This document shows, piece by piece, positions 2,425 through 14,501 of a stretch of DNA of 64,000 nt; the stretch's first letter is position 1, and every line of letters begins with the position of its first letter. Origin of the DNA: Rhizophagus irregularis. Its lineage: Eukaryota > Glomeromycota > Glomeromycetes > Glomerales > Glomeraceae. The notes under the pieces are model-generated. The model did no database searches and was not told where the DNA came from. It saw nothing but the letters and a program-made list of their open reading frames with translations. Where the stretch lies: positions 4,092,001-4,156,000 of the forward strand of contig NC_089430.1 of NCBI RefSeq assembly GCF_026210795.1, read 5' to 3'. A program made the translations under genes and the position numbers.

Positions 2425-3763
2425 AGGCCCCAGAAAATGATTATATATGTAAAGTACCAAGATGCTTAATCAACATAGAAAAATTTTATGATGTAAGAAT
2501 TTTATAATGCTTAATTTTGAGAAAATTTTATACTATATAAGATAATTAAATTGCATATTTTTGGTATTATTTTAAAATACTAAAAGTTTTTACTAATTGT
2601 TTATTTTTCATATTTATAGAACTTTTTAAAATATTATATATTGAATTTATAATTAATTTTTATTTTATTTTTACTAACAGTGAGTGTTAATTTTATACTA
2701 TATTTTACAATTTTATATAAATGTATAAACAAAAATTTTTTTATGAAATTTCAGTTTTTTTTTTCAATGTTTTATTAATTATCTTTCAATAGTATTTTTT
2801 TAATTTTTATTAAACTCAGTATATTATTTTTAATATAAAATTACTATATTATATATATTTATTTGTTAAATAAAATTACTGTAAATATATTTTACTTTAA
2901 AATATAATTTCACTATTCACCACTTTGGTTATATCAAATTATCTTTTATGTTTAAGTAAGGTTGTTCAGCAAGTTAAATTTACTTGTATTTTAATTTTCA
3001 TAAGGCTAAGTATAATATTTATATAGAAAAGCATATTTTTTATAACAGTAATAACTTTTAAATTTTTCACTTTTTTATTTACAACTTTAAAGTGTAATTA
3101 CATCACTTTGGTCAAATGAAATCGACTTTCTAAATTAATTAAAAGTTTTTCAGCAAGGTCGAAACTACTTATACATTAATTTTCATAAATGTGAGTATAA
3201 TACTTATGGAGAAAAGTGCATTTTTCATAATAGTACTAACTTCTGAATTTTTCATTTCTCTGTTTACAAATTCAGAGTGTAATTACATCCTTTTAGTCAA
3301 ATGAAATTGACTTTCTAAATTAATTGAAAATTGTTCAGCAAGGTCGAAACTACCTACATATTAATTTTTATAGATGTAAGTATAATACTTATGGAGAAAT
3401 TTACATTTATTGTAATAGTATTAATTAAAATTTTTTTTTTACTATTTATTAACTTTATTAATTGAATATTGTTAATCTACTTGTATATTATGTTTAGTTT
3501 AGCTTCACAATGTATTGATCATATTTAAAATTAGATTTAATAAAATATATTTAATTAATAAATATATTTTATAAATTATATGTGTTATAATAAAAATTTA
3601 ATTAGGTTAGAAGATTAATAATTTGCTTATTTTTATATAATTTTTAAGGTTAGATTACTTAGATATTAACAATGCTTAGCAATTATAGTAAAAACCTATG
3701 CTTATAGCTACTAATAAAAAATATTTTTAGGACCTTACCTATATAAGTATTTTCTGGAATCCT
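2425..3763. mobile_element. Non-autonomous hAT-like TIR element, copy 1 (1.34 kb)
   Basis: The left end reads AGGCCCCAGAAAATGATTAT. The reverse complement of the right end reads AGGATTCCAGAAAATACTTA. These match the ends of the nested copy at 15237-23588, and the body is collinear with that copy once its insertions are removed (about 1.32 kb). No transposase is present. The last third (about 2.93-3.42 kb) is about 2.5 tandem copies of a roughly 185-bp unit holding the phrases GTTCAGCAAGGTCGAAACTA and CAAATGAAATCGACTTTCTA. No target duplication is clear around this copy. The class comes from the 8-bp duplication around copy 2. Confidence 0.8.
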
Positions 3764-4689
3764 AAAAAAGCGAAATAAAAAGATCTTTCTCTTAGTAGAC
3801 AATGTACAGTTCATACTATTAGTAATTGGAGTTATTGATAAATATTACAATCCATTATTTGCCTCCCAATATTACAGTGCATCTGCAACCTGCTAATGCT
3901 GACATTATTAATTCATTCAAAGTTTGTATATTATTTATTATAAATTAGATTATAAAATTAATAGCACATATTCTAATAATTTATTAATCTTAGGTATAAT
4001 ATCGTAAAAGACTTATAAAAGATAGAATTAAGGCTTATGATAATGAATGGAGTTAAATATACTAGTTCCTAAATTGAAGATAAGTGACTCTATTTTACTT
4101 TGTACAAAAGCTTGAAAAGCTGTAACAAGTGAAACTATTTATAATTATTTGTCCAAAACTGGAATTTTGCCAATTTCGCCTTCACCCTCACCTTTACCTT
4201 CACTTTTACCTTCATCTTCTGATGAAGAACAAAATGATGATGGCCTAAATGAAATAGAAGAGATCCAAATTGTATCAATATAGTAATTTTATTTCTGGTG
4301 GATTAATAAGTGCTAAGAAATTTATCTTAATTGATAATGATAATAATTATGGGGGAGAAGAAATTACAGATGAAGAAATTGTAAATACAGTCAAACTTTG
4401 ATATAGCGAACTCTTGATATAGTGAATTTTTCAGACAACTATAATAAATTTCCTCTTGCTATAACAAATTAACCAATCAAATCTCTTAAAATTTTCACTA
4501 TAGCACTATCACAGGTCGAACAGATGTCATTGTCGCAAAATTTGCCTGGAATTTTTCTGGCAAATTGAGAATTATCCCGGTAAATTGAGGTAAATTGTGT
4601 TACAATTTTGGGATAATGGAGGTCTTACAATTTGGCAAATTTTGTCAAAATGGCGACAATCCTACACAATTCCTAATTCAAATGTTGAG

Positions 4690-5060
4690 AAATTTTTCAG
4701 AAATTTTAGTCAAATTTTTAGTAATTTTATGCAAACGTAATGAAAATTGTGGTGAATTTAGTTAAATTTTTAGTAATGTTATGTAAACGAAGTGCAAATT
4801 GTGGTGAATTTAATCAAATTTTTAGTAATGTTATGTAAATGAAGTGCAAATTGTGGTGAATTTAGTTAAATTTTTAGTAATGTTATGCAAACGTAATGCA
4901 AATTGTGGTAAATTATAGTGAATTTTTAGTAATTTTATGCAAAAGTAATGCAAATTGTGGTAAATTGTAGTGTATTTTTAGTAATGTTATATAAATTGTT
5001 GAAAATTTAGGTGAATTTTTCAGCAATGTTGTGCAAATGTAATACAAATTGTGGTAAATT
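4690..5060. repeat. Tandem repeat, unit about 58-60 bp, left subterminal
   Basis: About six degenerate copies of a unit containing TTTTTAGTAATGTTATG then CAAATTGTGGTGAATTTAG. Copies lose similarity toward 5060. Further TTGGACAATTGAGTG motifs continue to about 5280. No coding potential. Confidence 0.75.
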
Positions 5061-5515
5061 TTGCATTTTTTCGGTAAATGTTAGCTAAACTTTTGATAAT
5101 TTAGTGAAATTTAGGATAATTTCGGACAATTGAGTGAAAATGTTTTACTGATTTTGGACAATTGAGTGTAAACGGTATAAATGCAACATTTTCAGAGACA
5201 ATTTAGTGAAATTTTGGACAATTGAGTGAAATTTAGTAATAATTTTAAACAATTTAGTGTAAACTCCACGACAATTTAAAACACTGTTTTAATAATTTCA
5301 CATAATTTATTATAATTTTATTTATTAATAAATGTACAATTATTATTATTTAACGATAATCTATGGATAATCTGCACCTCTAATTCATTCATGTATCAAA
5401 TGTTCAGTGCCAAAGTAGAAGCCGGTAAGTAAACCAAAAAAAAGAAAAAAATGAAGCGTTAATAAACGTTTCGTTGAAAAAAAATCAAAATAAAGAAACA
5501 TTTCGAAGTATATAC

Positions 5516-7440
5516 CTTCGAAATGTTAAATTCCATACGTCCAAGGACCGTTGAACCTAAAAAATAAAAAAAATGAAACGTTAATATACGTTTCGTTAAA
5601 AAAAATCAAATAAAAAAAATATTTCAAAGTATACCTTCGAAATATTGAATTCGGTTTGTCCAATGAGCCGCCAAACCTAAAAAATATAAAAAAAACGAAA
5701 CATTAATATACGTTTCGTTGAAAAAAATCAAAATAAAAAACAAACATTTCGAAGTATACCTTCGAAATATTCCTTTCGTTTTCACTGTTCCCTTTCGTTT
5801 CCCCCATTCGTTTTCACCTTTCCCGTTCATTTTCACCTTCCCCTTTCGTTTTTCCTTTTCCCTTTTCGTTTTTTCCTTTTATTTTCGTTTCCTCTTCCCC
5901 TTGTGTTTACTCTTTCCTTTTCGTTTTACCCTTTTCCCCTTTCGTTTCATCCATTCCTTTACGTTTTACCCTTTCCTTTTCATTTTATCCTTTCCCTTAA
6001 AGTAAAATAGAAAAAGAAACAAAAATTTAATAAATTAGATAAACAAAAAAAACGAAAAATTCCCCTAATTCCCTTTCCTTATTACCTTTCACCAAAGTCC
6101 GGGTCGTAATTTCATCCGGCATTCCTACAAGAAGGAAGAAAAGAAACGTCAGTTAACGTTTCTTAAAAAAAATAATTAATTATTAAGTTTCGCAACACAA
6201 TATTGCGAAACTCACCGGTTCGTTTCGAACTCCATCATCAAACGTCCGGCGTTCCTACAAAAAGTAAAAGAAACGTATGTTAGTATCGTTTCTTTAAAAA
6301 AAAAAATAATAATTAAAAAAATAAGATTCGCAATATTGCGAAACTCACCGGTTCGTTTCGATTTCCATTATCCAAACGTCCGGAACCTACAAAAAGAAAA
6401 AAAGAAACGTTAGTTAACATTTCTTACAATAAAAAAATAAAAAATTAAGTTTCGCAATGTAACATTACGCAAACTTACCGGTCGTTTCCATCATCCTAAC
6501 GTCCGGAACCTACAAAAAGTAAAATAAAGAAACGTTAGTTAACGTTTCTTATAATAAAAAAATAAAAAAAAAATTAAGTTTCGCAATGTAACATTGCGAA
6601 ACTTACCGGTCGTTTCCATCATCCTAACGTCTGGAACCTACAAAAAGTAAAATAAAGAAACGTTAGTTAACGTTTCATTTAATAAAAAAAAATAAAAATA
6701 AAGTTTCGCAACACAATGTTGCGAAACTCACCGGTTCGTTTCGAACTCATTATCCAAACGTCCGGCGTTCCTACAAAAGAAAAAAAGAAACGTTAGAAAC
6801 GTTTCCTAAAAAAAAATAAAAAAAAATTTAATTTTTTAAAAAAAGGGTTCGAAGAATTTCGCAACTTACCCTTTAGTTTCCTCATTTCCCAAACTCAAAC
6901 ACCGCAAATCCTACAAAAAAAAGGAAACATCAGTAATGTTTCCTAAAAAAAAAGAATTTAGAAAAAGTTTTGAGGCGAACGCCTCGAAACTTACCATTTC
7001 GTTTTTCCAAGTTGAATACGCCGGAAAGACCTATAAAAAAAAATAAAGGATTGTTAAAAATGTTCCTTATAAAAAAAAAAAAATTTTTTTTAGTTTTTTT
7101 TTTTAGTTTTCGAAACGAAAAGCTACCTTTCAGTTCTTCGTTTCCCGAAATCAAACACCGGAAGCCTACACAAAAAAAACAAAAAAAGGAAGCGTTGAGA
7201 AACGTTTCCTAAAAGGAATTAAAAAAATTAAAAAAAGTTTCGAAGCGAAACGCTTTGAAACTTACCCATTTCCTGGCTTTCTAAAGACGAATACCGAAAG
7301 ACCTAAAAAAAGAAAGTGTAGAAAGCGTTAGAAACGCTTCTAAAAAAAAAAAAAATTATTAAAAGTTTCGAAGCGAAACGCTTGAAACTTACTATTTCAT
7401 TGGAAGATTCTGACGCTGATTACATAATTAATATGGTTAT
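5516..7440 (-). other. Array of about 14 mini-exons with hairpin-bearing introns
   Basis: Read on the minus strand, the same plan repeats about every 130 bp: T-rich tract and TAG, a short block starting with G, then a 5' splice site. Candidate exons (forward coordinates, transcript order) are: ends at 7393 (first), 7302-7266, 7165-7127, 7030-6995, 6910-6870, 6770-6732, 6637-6607, 6509-6479, 6386-6349, 6254-6216, 6124-6086, 5995-5760 (long, purine-rich), 5676-5635, 5556-5516. Lengths are 31-42 nt apart from the long one. Donors are GTAAGT (5), GTGAGT (3), GTAGCT, GTAATA and GTATAC/T. Acceptors are TTTTTGTAG, TTTATAG or TTTTTAG. Typical exon text is GTTCCGGACGTTAGGATGAT. Exon lengths are not all multiples of three and no single frame stays open, so I do not call a protein. 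Introns are about 75-100 nt and hold two hairpins each, one starting at the 5' splice site and one around CTAAC. Confidence 0.7.
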
Positions 7441-7600
7441 TGTTAATAATAGTAGGAAGGGAAAGGGGAAGGGGAGAGAAAGAGAGAAGGGGAAAGGGCG
7501 AAGGAGAATGGGAGGGAAGGTGAAGGTGAAGGTGAAAGAAAGAGGGAAGGGGAAGGTGAGAGAGAAAGGAAGGTAAAGGGCGAAAGAAAGGAGAAATAAA
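7441..7600. repeat. Purine-rich minisatellite
   Basis: Strand-asymmetric (G/A on plus) repeats of GGGAAGG, GAGAAAGA and GGTGAAGG. Open frames here on both strands (up to 64 codons) are low-complexity consequences of the repeat. On the minus strand this would be a pyrimidine-rich lead just upstream of the mini-exon array. Confidence 0.7.
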
Positions 7601-7609
7601 GGCATGAGA

Positions 7610-7965
7610 AAAAAAAATTAAGCTTTTTGCTAAAAAAAGCTTAATTTTTTTTCGTTATACCGCAGTTGAAGCTGCGGTAATTATTAAGTAATATCGCGTG
7701 ACGCACGTGATATATAATTTTATATAAATAGGGGCATTTTCCCCGAAAAATTTTTTTTTTATTATAATTTTTTTGATAGATGTATATATATACTTATATA
7801 TATACATATATATATATCTATCTAATAACTTTACGAAAAGCCCCTCCTCTGTAAACAGGTAGAGGCCATAAAGTACCTATAGGGGGAGAGCCGTTGCTGC
7901 TCCCTCCGCCTGTTTATAGTGACAAAAGAGGGAGTCTTCAGTAGTAAGGTTTCGTATAAATTAAA
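7610..7965. other. Row of consecutive hairpins with a possible kissing-loop pair
   Basis: In order: a 12-bp stem ATTAAGCTTTTT/AAAAAGCTTAAT followed by a T run (terminator-like); TACCGCAG/CTGCGGTA with a 6-nt loop; ATATC..GTG/CAC..GATAT; a long AT-only stem at about 7778-7827. Then comes a GC-rich block closed by ACGAAA (7833-7838) and TTTCGT (7950-7955). Inside it, CCTCT (7846-7850) pairs with AGAGG (7861-7865) around a loop holding TAAACAGG. CTCCCTC (7900-7906) pairs with GAGGGAG (7928-7934) around a loop holding CCTGTTTA. The two loops are perfect 8-nt complements. GGGGGAG (7882-7888) is a competing partner for CTCCCTC. Which strand is transcribed is unknown. I do not recognise a known RNA family. 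Confidence 0.6.
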
Positions 7966-8149
7966 CAACACATCGTGTTGATACATTGTTAAAATTAACA
8001 ATGTGAATTTAATGTTAAATAATGCGTTAGAATATAAATATTATAAATTTAATAATGTCCGTAATTTTACAAATAAATAAAAATTATCCTAACAATTTTA
8101 ATGTAATTAAGTGTAATGCTACATTATCCTGTGTAATTGTAGTATTTTT

Positions 8150-8560
8150 TTTGTGTTTTTTAGTGCAATTCCGCGTTTTTAGTGCAATTCTGCGTTTTTA
8201 GTGCAATTCTGCGTTTTTTAGTGCAATTCCACATTTTTTAGTGCAATTCCGCATTTTTTAGTGCAATTCCGCGTTTTTTAATGCAATTCCGCATTTTCTA
8301 GCATAATGTTACATAACACGAAATTTTCTAAAAATATGATAATTGTGGTACTTTTTAGTGTAATGCTACATTGTCTAGTGTAATTGTGGTATTTTTTAGT
8401 GCAATGCTGCATAATTTAGTATAGTGCTACATTTTTTAGTATAATTTAATGTAATGTGGAATTTTCCAAAAAATGTGATAATTGTGATGCTTTTTAGTGT
8501 AATTTGGTGAAATGCTACATTTTCCAGTGTAATGCCATATTATTGAGCATTTTCAAAAAA
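8150..8560. repeat. 20-bp minisatellite, decaying rightward
   Basis: About seven near-identical copies of TTTTTTAGTGCAATTCCGCG between 8155 and 8305, followed by degenerate AGTGTAATGCTACATTTT variants to about 8560. Noncoding. Confidence 0.85.
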
Positions 8561-8599
8561 AAAATGTAACATTTTAACATTCTGACGAAAGTGAAACAT

Positions 8600-9060
8600 T
8601 TGACCAAAAAAACATAAAATTTGCTAAAAATATGCAACATTTGACAAAAAATATAGAATTTTCATAAAAAAATGCACCATTTGCTAGGAAATCGGAATAT
8701 TTGACAAAATTTGATTTTAATTGACAATGTTATAACAATTTTATGAAATGTTGTTACAATGATATCACATTGGAGATAAAATGTGGCATTTTCATAAAAA
8801 TGCACCATTTGCAAGAAAATTGGAACATTTGACAAAAAAAAAGCAAAATTTGATTTTAATTAACAATGTTATAACAATTTTATTAAATGTTATTACATTT
8901 GAGGTAAAATGTGAAATTTTCATAAAAATGCACCATTTGCAAGAAAATTGGAACATTTGGCAAAAAAAAAGCAAAATTTGATTTTAATGACAATGTTATA
9001 ACAATGTTACGAAATGTTACAAAAATGTTACATTTGAGATATAATGTAGCATTTTCCCAA
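8600..9060. repeat. Tandem repeat of about 115 bp, three copies
   Basis: Each unit contains CATTTTCATAAAAATGCACC, then TTGCAAGAAAATTGGAACAT, then CAATGTTATAACAATTTTAT. Small open frames on both strands here are repeat artefacts. Confidence 0.8.
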
Positions 9061-9364
9061 AATTTCATAAGATTTGCTAAATCGGACAATGTTGTAACAA
9101 TGCTATTCCAAAAAATTGCTCAGCGTAATGCAGCATTTTCCACAATTTCCCACAATTTTCCAGGAAAATGGGGAATTTGCATTTTTTGAATTTTGGACAA
9201 TGGCGCCCCTTCGACCTGTGCTAGGGTTCGTTATAACAAGAATTGACTGTATAGTAAAACCAAATGAAACAGATCTTAAAGAAAAAGAATTAATTCTACA
9301 ACCCAAAATATCCACTTCAGAAACATTAACATCTATTATTAAACAAAATATTATCTTTTCTTGA

Positions 9365-10982: not shown

Positions 10983-13900
10983 TTAGATATTATATAATAT
11001 ATTCAATAATAAAACAAATAATACTTTTCCAAAACATGTTCCTTCATTGGTATTATAATCTTCAGCTTCTTCAACATTCATATTAATTGAAACATTACTA
11101 AATTCTGGTTCATTATAGTACTTGCTAACTGCTCGAACACAATCTCCACTAGCAGTCATATTTGTATAACTATACCAAGAAATAATTGTATTATTAATAA
11201 TCATCTCCTCGGTTAAATTATCATCTAAATCAAAAAACTCATTTAAAACTATGAGAAATTGGCTTAACGCTAACAAAGCATCAGAAGCAAGACTATTTTT
11301 TTCCTTATAACTATCAAAAAATTCGTCAAAATTTTCTAATGCAAATTTTCCCAATAACCCCTTTAACGATGTGAATTTTTGAGATTTTTTTTGTTTAGTT
11401 TGATGTATCAAGTATTTTAACGTTGTTTTGTGTTGAACCTATAAAATAATTAATTTTTAAATGACATCAAGAATGAATTTAAAAAATACTATACTAACTG
11501 TATTAATAATTTGTCCCATTAGTTCTCGTTTGTTACTTGATCTGTATGGATTTTTGACGTAATCTTTGTGCAAAAACTCGTATGTTTCTGTTGTATAACC
11601 ATTAATTGCACCAAACTCTTCAATTGAATTAATGATGTGATACACCCAATTGTGTAGTTTGGGCAATTTAAGTTCAGATCGGGAATAGTGTTGGAATAGT
11701 TTCACAAATGCTGTTATCCAATCTGTTATTAATTTCTATAATAAATAAAAATCAAATAGTTGAAACAAATGTTTAATTAAAATGATACTTTTTTTAAAAA
11801 ATTACTTTAAATTCTACCAGTTCCGAATTCGTAAAATATTCTTTTCGGCTAAATAAATACATTTTATTCTACCGATAATAAACATTAACCAATGCATTAT
11901 CTTGTTTTTTAGCGTTCTGTTCTTTGCTGTACTTTATTATTAACCCTTCAATTACGAAAAGAAATACTTTTATCATATTATAGTATTCATTTACCGTAAG
12001 GCGCTTAATATTTTCTAATCCATGTTTGAAAATTTTAAGCCCTAGAAATCTAGGAATAGTGGCTAAGCATTTGTCAAGTTCATCAACTGCCACTTGTCCA
12101 CATAGATTTTTCAACATTTCTTGTGTATAAATTACTTGATATTTATACAATCCTAGATCGAGATGATGCATCCTATCTGGGTATGTTGCTAAATATATAT
12201 CAAGTTGACTAAAGAATAATATATAAATAATATAAGGTGGCTAATTCAGTTTTTATTATTATTTAATTAATATATTGTATTAATTTTATCTGTTATAATA
12301 AAATTGACTTACGGATATTTCCAAAAAATATTATTCATGTCATATATCGAATATTGATAAGCGAGGCGTTGATTTACAATATTTTTCATGGTTGTTGGCG
12401 TTCTTAATTCTATTTCATCATTGCTTAATCTTAAATTATTCAAATCTTCTCTAGAAATTAAACATTTATGGTAAGGATATTTACTGTTAATCGAGTATGT
12501 TAACGTTTGTGTAGCATTTTCTGGAAGATCTTCCAACAAGGTAGATATATACGGAAAACACCATATGTCTCCATTATTTGTTTGTAAATCAATGCCCCTA
12601 TCTTTGTATGACAATAGCGGATGCATCATGACATCAAATGCTTTATGAAACAAAGTCTTTTTTGTTAGCAAAAATCTCCTTGATTTTTTTTCCGAAATTG
12701 TTTTTGCTTTTAATATTAGAAGATAACAAAGAAGAACTTTAGCGTCAGGTTTATTATGATGCCAGTTTGGTATATTACCTAAAGTCAAATACACTGGATG
12801 CTCAGATAATTTTCCTATTTGGTCACAAGTTGTAGCATCAGAATAAAGAATTATTGATAAAATATTTGCCGCGTTAAGAAGCGTATTTTGTGTCTTTTCT
12901 CACCATTTTCCATTGAATTGTTCACTATAAATTCTTTGGCCTCAATTGTATAATGGTGTAAATTTAAAGATACAATGTTCAAAAATATCATTATTACTCA
13001 GCAATTCTTTTATAGCATCAAAAATCTGTCGATAGTGAAGGTAGTATGTTTCATTATTATATTTCATTATAGGCACCTTTTTGAAAGAGGTATGTGATTT
13101 TGCTAATTGATCCAAAAACTTTCGGCCTTGTTTCACTGAAGTAGGTAAAACTACATCATCACGAGCAATACTTTTTGAAAATTTAAGTATTTCATTACTA
13201 CAAACATCTGATAGATCCCATTTAACAAGTAAGCTCATAAAATTTCCAAACTCCTTGGACAGAAAGTCTATTTTGTCACTCGTAGTAATATCAATATTTT
13301 GGCAACTGGCAGATATTCCACATCAATTAACTCAAATTCTACGTCCTCCTGTAGTAAACGGACAAAAAGCTTGTTAAAAGCTTATTTTATTGATTTTAAA
13401 TTGTGTTAACTTAATACCTGAATTTTTTCATCTTCATTATCTTCCATTTCTCTTTCATCAACATCATCGTCTTCTAGTACTTCATCTTCTTATACGTCAT
13501 CATCTACATCTTCTTTTATGTTCGTCACTTCCATGTTTATTTCTTTTCCTACATCTACTTCTACATACAGTCAACTCTTGTTATAATGAACCCTAGGTTC
13601 TAGACTTCAACTTCGCTATAAGGCTATAGTGAAGATTTTAAGAGATTTGATTGGTTAATTCGTTATAGCAAGAGGAAATTTGTTATAGTTGTCTAAAAAA
13701 TTCACTATATCAAGGGTTCGCCATATCAAGGTTTGACTGTACTCTCTTTCTATATATGTTTTCACATTTGTTTCTCTGTCTATATCTATTTCATTATTGT
13801 ACGCCATTTCTTCCTGTTACTCTTGTTGATTAAAACTTTCTTCTGCGTCTTTTAAACGGTACGTTTCACCATCATATTGCTCTTCATCATTATTTTCGTT

Positions 13901-14038
13901 TAAGATAATTGTATTATTTCTTTTATTTGCAATTTCTTGCAGATAGCTGTCTATTGTACTGCCGTGAATTTTTATATGATTTCTAAATGCCGTATGACAA
14001 GAAAAGTTTCTTGAACAATAAGAACACTTGAATATCAT
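10983..14038 (-). pseudogene. Plavaka-type (CACTA-related) transposase, decayed
   Basis: In minus-strand order: an N-terminal C2H2 finger (CSYCSRNFSCHTAFRNHIKIH pattern, 14026-13964); an acidic spacer now holding a MITE; MSLLVKWDLSD..FSKSIARDD and YLHYRQIFDAIKELLSNN; VYLTLGNIPNWHHNKPDAKV; DIWCFPYISTLLEDLPE and YPYHKCLISREDL; PDRMHHLDLGLYKYQ; LPKLHNWVYHIINSIEEFGA then NGYTTETYEFLHKDYVKN and YRSSNKRELM. This is the motif series of fungal Plavaka/KDZ-like transposases annotated near CACTA elements, which cut and paste the element in the nucleus. Several breaks look like introns (for example GTAAGT near 12314) but others change frame, there are stops, and a MITE sits in the gene, so it is called dead. 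The family call is good; exact exons are not claimed. Confidence 0.8.
13568..13739. mobile_element. 172-bp pogo-like MITE inserted in the Plavaka gene
   Basis: The ends are CAGTCAACTCTTGTTATAAT and, as reverse complement of the right end, CAGTCAAACCTTGATATGGC. TA lies at 13566-13567 and 13740-13741. The termini match the 4.86-kb element at 4388-9249, so both probably used the same transposase. The whole element is a near foldback. Confidence 0.85.
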
Positions 14039-14501
14039 TTTTACGGTAATGTTTTCAAACGAATTTGATAATTCTTAAATTTATTAGTATATTTATGAAA
14101 TTATTAACAAAGGTAAACAATTTATATACAATTAATTATTTAGAAGTAATTTCAACTTGTGATGACAAACTAAAATAATACAATGGTATTTTATTACTTC
14201 AAAGAGGAAATGGGTCTGTTATAATCAAGTGATTTTGAATTTATGATGACATAACGAATTAAGTAAGATATCAAGTGCTAATTTTCAAACTGAAGTGATG
14301 TTTGCTTATTTTATTTATTTGTACTAGTTACAAATACTTTTGCTAATATGCTAACAGTTTTTAGAACATGCTGACGGGTGTGGATTTGGAATTTTTAGAA
14401 AAATAAAAGAATGCCTATTTTTTTGGCTTTCTCTTTTTTATTAAAATCACCATTTCTTTTACCCTATTTTTTATTAATCAAACTATCATTTAGTAACAAT
14501 C
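14039..14501. other. AT-rich spacer between the Plavaka relic and the next gene
   Basis: No coding or repeat signal beyond AT richness. It should include the right end of the Plavaka element and the upstream region of the following gene, but I cannot delimit either. Confidence 0.4.

Follow-up and report, generated by a model that had tools for sequence, protein, structure and literature searches.

The stretch of DNA analysed here, called the window, comprises 64,000 nucleotides of Rhizophagus irregularis. Within it, an array of short exon-like and intron-like units sits in a 4.7-kb element (4510-9220) with terminal inverted repeats, the ends of which read CACAGGTCGAA. Fourteen donors alternate with 13 internal acceptors along the minus strand, from 7392 down to 5515. 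The GT of the donors starts at 7392, 7265, 7126, 6994, 6869, 6731 and 6606 in the first half of the array, and at 6478, 6348, 6215, 6085, 5759, 5634 and 5515 in the second. The features of the locus are as follows.

4510..9220, minus strand: apparently non-autonomous CACTA/EnSpm-type element with ends CACAGGTCGAA
8155..9220, no strand assigned: 5' terminal region with tandem repeats, its outer ~650 bases common to elements of 8-9 kb
7600..7990, minus strand: presumed promoter region upstream of the array; it holds hairpins, a palindrome of CACGTG type and a TATA-like word, TATTTATATAAA, at about 7730-7719
7393..7624, minus strand: CT-rich tract (7624-7435) and end of the first exon
7266..7302, minus strand: mini-exon 1, 37 nt
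7127..7165, minus strand: mini-exon 2, 39 nt, donor GTAGCT
6995..7030, minus strand: mini-exon 3, 36 nt
6870..6910, minus strand: mini-exon 4, 41 nt
6732..6770, minus strand: mini-exon 5, 39 nt
6607..6637, minus strand: mini-exon 6, 31 nt
6575..6606, minus strand: example of a donor hairpin, GTAAGTTTCGCAATG-TTA-CATTGCGAAACTTA
6479..6509, minus strand: mini-exon 7, 31 nt
6349..6386, minus strand: mini-exon 8, 38 nt
6216..6254, minus strand: mini-exon 9, 39 nt
6086..6124, minus strand: mini-exon 10, 39 nt, donor GTAATA
5760..5995, minus strand: purine-rich exon (GA tract), 236 nt, acceptor AAG, donor GTATAC
5635..5676, minus strand: tail mini-exon, 42 nt, its donor in the loop of a ATTTCGAAG..CTTTGAAAT-type hairpin (by inspection)
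5516..5556, minus strand: tail mini-exon, 41 nt
5300..5434, minus strand: terminal exon with AATAAATAAA (from about 5326), acceptor AG missing in the window copy
4510..5234, no strand assigned: 3' terminal region with tandem repeats, partly common to the 8-9 kb elements

In the window array the mini-exons (n=12) measure 31-42 nt, the one further exon (5995-5760, purine-rich) 236 nt, and the complete introns (n=13) 78-100 nt as computed from the exon borders. GTRAGT is found at 9 of the 14 donors, the rest being GTAGCT, GTAATA, GTATAC (two) and GTATAT; the internal acceptors are TAG in 12 of 13 cases and AAG in one, and the AG of the last acceptor (about 5435) is gone in this copy. Of the 220 distinct introns in the sampled copies, 151 contain a strict CTRAY branch-like motif, and part of the remainder has TTAAC. 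The longest strict exon chain in the array region counts seven exons, versus at most one across 500 dinucleotide shuffles; it is likewise at most one in the 222 tiles outside 4400-9300 on both strands, and zero on the plus strand of the array region. The chain is 7 rather than 12 because the strict finder accepts GTRAGT/GTRAGC donors only. The alternation of 14 donors and 13 acceptors, which shuffled sequence reproduces for one unit at most, confirms the original prediction of an array of mini-exons with splice signals at this place. The 236-nt exon had been missed, and first and terminal exons flank the array on its two sides.

Matches to the array were found in at least 40 separate places of the genome (the best 40 of 443 candidates), with two more on C20, and the upstream region by itself matches at least 40 places at 85-100% identity (the best 40 of 209 candidates). 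The ~400 bp upstream of the array, which carry the TATA-like word, the CACGTG-like palindrome and hairpins, are followed by the CT-rich stretch and then by the first donor, and are presumed to act as promoter. At the other side, a shared terminal exon starting with GTTTTCACC or similar was found in 30 of 31 loci. AATAAA lies within about 160 bases in the terminal exon in 29 of these 30, the sequence of L090 stopping too early, and the acceptor AG of this exon is intact in 29 of the 30, the window copy being the exception. Moreover, the terminal exon is entered from a main-array intron in some subfamilies and from a tail-type intron in others, and therefore the intron chain survived rearrangement. 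A TATA-like region, a CT-rich first exon, mini-exons and a terminal exon containing AATAAA together suggest that the array forms the body of a noncoding gene of Pol II type. No spliced retrocopies were present among the best 40 of 83 candidates, and Rfam gave no match above the gathering score.

As for the element itself, the flanking sequence diverges directly past its 3' end in 11 other loci having that end, and a 3-bp target duplication is present in 15 of the 16 copies having both ends (two of these are long elements) and absent in the window copy. The earlier suggestion that an exon+intron unit was duplicated serially inside a DNA transposon is supported. Among the sampled copies the terminal word is CACAG at 30 of 30 5' ends and 19 of 20 3' ends. 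Typical CACTA/EnSpm (CMC) ends begin with CACTA or CACTG, so the element is termed CACTA-type rather than a typical CACTA element. The longest stop-to-stop frame within the window element is 112 aa. Pairing of the end matches revealed elements of about 8-9 kb with the ends of the window element. Over the end stretches read, about 650 bases (5') and 600 (3') are common to them and the array element. In the interior of one of them (L089, C11:974000-978000, 4 kb) lies a gene for a protein of tnp2 type (PF02992, E 1.2e-9); 94% of this protein aligns, at 96% identity, with a protein known from R. irregularis DAOM 197198. This 4-kb interior does not match the array element, and neither it nor the end stretches read from the long elements showed an array. 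Because the long elements share its ends and one encodes tnp2, the array element is apparently a non-autonomous relative. CMC/EnSpm elements are mentioned in work on R. irregularis transposons (PMC11075540; PMC8647823), and the word start "splic" is absent from the main text of both papers.

Two further observations were made on the long elements. A repeat of ~52 bp near the 3' end is present in far more copies in three 8-9 kb elements (L041, L043 and L044) than in the array elements. In L089, open frames at 2751-3491 on the plus strand oppose the tnp2 gene and may be a second gene; they gave no convincing Pfam match, and their coiled-coil look is an impression only.

Constraint on the splice signals was examined with consensus arrays built for four subfamilies from 21 loci (6, 3, 8 and 4). 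Since the unit lister reports only units with GT and AG, it is the gaps that count, and outside the GA-tract region no gap of unit length was found, bar one unit in subfamily G3, where the acceptor is one base off and was misread by the lister. A profile of the consensus intron, trained on GT/AG-bearing units and hence biased toward them, gave 421 hits in 31 loci, of which 293 full-length units were used for counts. Their donor dinucleotide is GT in 279, GA in 10, AT in three and GC in one. The 10 GA cases are tail units with a GTATA donor further along, which in L013 is itself altered. The acceptor is AG in 289, the other four reading AA with AG one base on. In the comparison between clusters (37 clusters of at least three units, 241 of the 293), differences affect 2 of 148 GT/AG cells versus 513 of 3188 cells in the intron and 73 of 324 in the flanks of the exon (Fisher p 7e-9). 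Both GT/AG differences fall in the T column and were assigned to wrongly anchored tail units, because only the GA tails, among the units lacking that T, are numerous enough to cluster. Once these are removed GT/AG do not differ at all, versus 16-23% of the other cells between the cluster consensus units. Sixteen columns are invariant between clusters, including the exon base G before GT, the G of GT, and TAG.

Within clusters, 6 of 964 GT/AG cells have changed versus 241 of 18755 non-CpG intron cells (p 0.07), which is compatible with neutral decay after insertion and selection at an earlier time. The expectation that GT and AG mutate less freely than their neighbours thus holds between unit clusters; within subfamilies, after insertion, their rate cannot be told clearly from that of other non-CpG sites. 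Of the 32 GT/AG columns of G1, 7 vary; the alignment of this subfamily, with its differing unit numbers, was judged unreliable. CACTA elements capture gene fragments, and the array might be a neutral relic of such a fragment, amplified in tandem, in which splice sites remain only through recent copying. The unclear difference within clusters agrees with this idea. Against it, GT/AG are the same in cluster consensus units that differ by 16-23% elsewhere (the two mis-anchored tails apart), and the two-sided changes in the donor stems described below require selection or repeated palindrome repair; a relic therefore appears unlikely to us.

The observation that introns are more conserved than exons was rejected as proof of intron function, being mostly an effect of CpG sites. 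Among non-CpG columns, variable ones make up 6 of 421 in stems versus 12 of 253 in exons in G2, a clear difference, and 14 of 335 versus 11 of 177 in G4, a small one; in G1, with its unreliable alignment, the order is reversed (42 of 325 versus 23 of 228 in exons). Once CpG is removed, a slower evolution of introns than of exons is therefore a weak tendency in these alignments. In the array copies of G4 and G2, CpG sites are ~5-23 times more variable than others, depending on the region, and transitions account for 77 of 87 and 70 of 73 two-state columns, respectively, which together are a signature of cytosine methylation.

Two hairpins form when the introns are folded, a donor stem and a second one containing the branch-like site; the mean fold z is -5.4 for introns (n=38) versus -0.1 for exons (n=42). 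Furthermore, a fold of -10 kcal/mol or lower is reached at 244 of 274 donors of the arrays, versus 1 of 48 GTRAGT sites in the rest of the window. Folded introns have no inverted repeat joining both ends, and those examined contain separate hairpins instead of the single donor-to-acceptor hairpin of a mirtron. Covariation was measured in 24 donor hairpins of equal length, picked from 99 because they fold. In these, 98.4% of cells are paired, versus 23-47% in slid structures; two-sided changes number 29 versus 11.3 in shuffles (0 of 500), and the covariation score is 0.359 versus 0.219 (0 of 500). Two of the five measures on these chosen hairpins are not above shuffles, namely the pairs with two-sided change (4 versus 4.1) and the further pair types (10 versus 10.8). 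In known cases, U1 is blocked by a hairpin that covers the donor (PMC9977717). In yeast, according to PMC12350175, true splice sites are poor in structure, and helpful stems, which draw the branch point close to the donor, begin 10 nt or more away from the latter in models. Stems over the donors would thus be expected to hinder splicing.

The same hairpins could also serve as DNA. On such a reading the array would provide palindromes as binding or structure sites for transposition or replication, with splice-like words inherited from a founder and left unused. The antisense strand of the introns folds with a mean z of -6.6, lower than the sense strand in 34 of 38, and changes of the G-U versus the A-C kind number 25 versus 12 in the donor stem and 11 versus 16 in the branch hairpin. 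These opposed counts were rejected as proof of RNA-level selection and give no clear strand signal; together with the better antisense folds, they make palindromes at the DNA level conceivable. In addition, there are further tandem repeats near both ends of the element. However, the AG, the T preceding it, the G of GT and the exon G before GT, which lies outside the hairpin, are invariant between clusters; the T-rich stretch and TAG are strand-specific; the terminal acceptor is retained in 29 of 30 loci; and the long elements have no array in their end stretches or in the single interior read. Considering these points, we regard a purely DNA-level role as rather improbable.

It had also been proposed that the array might yield variable short peptides by alternative splicing, and many similar exons with good splice signals would suit a combinatorial generator of this kind. 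The 176 distinct exons, however, have lengths of 0, 1 and 2 modulo 3 in 42, 67 and 67 cases, in line with the original remark that they are not frame-preserving; the longest spliced frame is not above shuffles in any of the four subfamilies, and stops occur in all three frames. Since the exons do not keep frame, peptides are hardly to be expected, and we consider this idea very improbable; nor do the exons keep frame as in a gene for a tandem-repeat protein.

A duplex between the CT-rich first exon and the GA-rich exon was compared with shuffled tracts in 15 loci. It lies far beyond the shuffles in L026 (z -7.4) and L033 (z -7.2), moderately so in L036 (z -4.7) and L035 (z -3.5), and is weak, with z from -0.9 to -2.0, in six (the window copy, L010, L011, L012, L014 and L016); a GA tract was not found in L018, L023, L025, L015 and L017. 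Such a duplex was therefore rejected as a universal feature, and a long RNA duplex from the two tracts is possible in some subfamilies only. That the element is above all a source or decoy of double-stranded RNA, which feeds or titrates RNA interference, would fit the four loci in which the duplex clearly beats the shuffled tracts; with six weak loci and five lacking the tract, it seems to us quite unlikely.

Considering the ends, the number of places, the anatomy of the array, its kept splice signals, the covarying donor hairpins and the noncoding exons, all of which the sequence shows, we assume, with a probability of roughly 0.55, that the 4.7-kb element is a non-autonomous CACTA/EnSpm-type transposon carrying a spliced noncoding intron-array gene in which the introns are the selected part. 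The element would be mobilised in trans by the longer elements with the same ends, one of which encodes a tnp2 transposase. Its cargo would be one noncoding Pol II-type gene with a tandemly amplified exon+intron unit as body, splicing would use most of the marked sites, and the transcript would end at the AATAAA in the shared terminal exon. We take the intron as the unit under selection and the mini-exons as spacers, because the exons are unstructured and do not keep frame, and the repeated, folded part is the intron. We infer that every transcript may give rise to about twelve small lariats, each with two hairpins, in the manner of a noncoding intron-host gene, and that the donor stem may gate or slow the access of U1; what the element gains could be the occupation of splicing or silencing factors, which is a guess. 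The original prediction had listed a spliced noncoding RNA as one possibility, which the evidence at the sequence level supports, and a way to make many intron lariats or hairpins as another. The latter is the reading favoured here; its hairpins are seen in the folds (mean intron z -5.4) and the lariats are presumed. A bolder version, in which the element represents a new class of mobile noncoding gene, an intron factory whose splicing is gated by covarying donor hairpins and whose two-hairpin lariats act for the element, is put forward tentatively, and we hold it to be doubtful.

Several known systems resemble parts of this plan. Host genes of snoRNAs (SNORD115/116 type; PMC11028025) likewise consist of noncoding tandem exon+intron units with structured introns, but the array rides in a transposon and its hairpins overlap the donor and branch site. 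In the 220 distinct array introns, box C was found in none and ACA after the second hairpin in none; CTGA occurs in 13 and ANANNA between the hairpins in 24. The Rfam list for 4400-9300 holds no snoRNA family, and snoRNAs in the introns were rejected on account of the boxes missing at the expected places and of this result. Non-autonomous CACTA/EnSpm (CMC) transposons share the inverted ends, the 3-bp target duplication, the repeats in the terminal regions and a tnp2 partner, and differ in that here the cargo is an array-type noncoding gene and the end is CACAG, not CACTA. Introners and introner-like elements are hairpinned, repeated introns that spread as transposable elements do (PMC7789003), whereas here intron and exon have been copied together in tandem at one locus and the intron ends are not joined by an inverted repeat. 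The stwintrons of Hypoxylaceae are sequence-similar and internally symmetrical fungal introns too, but the array introns are not nested. The late leader of murine polyomavirus is a small noncoding exon that stands in tandem in the precursor with leader-to-leader splicing (PMC5086616); unlike the array, it has a single genomic copy and its repeats form in giant transcripts. A stem across the 5' splice site is known from exon 10 of MAPT (PMC9977717), which is a single regulated exon and not many units. The SP7 effector genes were rejected as relatives, their plan being different in the text available. Among the titles listed from open-licence papers, none concerns this array.

If the array is spliced, a transposon would here carry a cargo under selection for splicing and not for coding, present in at least 40 natural copies of differing length. 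It could then serve to study how the introns of fungi work with donors held in stems, by what route exon+intron units are multiplied, and which benefit an intron-rich noncoding gene brings to a transposon.

The surroundings of the element contain other mobile sequences. Pieces of a Plavaka transposase (PF18759, with two stops within the match) adjoin it at 10983-14074 on the minus strand, with a weak C2H2-like zinc finger beside them; this transposase was rejected as the element's own, being located outside it. The inverted arms at 4386-4509 and 13618-13741 were likewise rejected as element ends, as the arm is a short repeat in its own right: one arm matched at least 40 places of the genome (the best 40 of 338 candidates), and the two are inverted copies of a short repeat starting like CAGTCAAACYTTGATAT. 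The array element appears to be inserted in one CAGTCAAACYTTGATAT-type repeat without target duplication. In another locus (L015, near position 3319), five bases separate the end of the array element from a further CACAGGTCGAA end, which looks like a side-by-side insertion of two elements.
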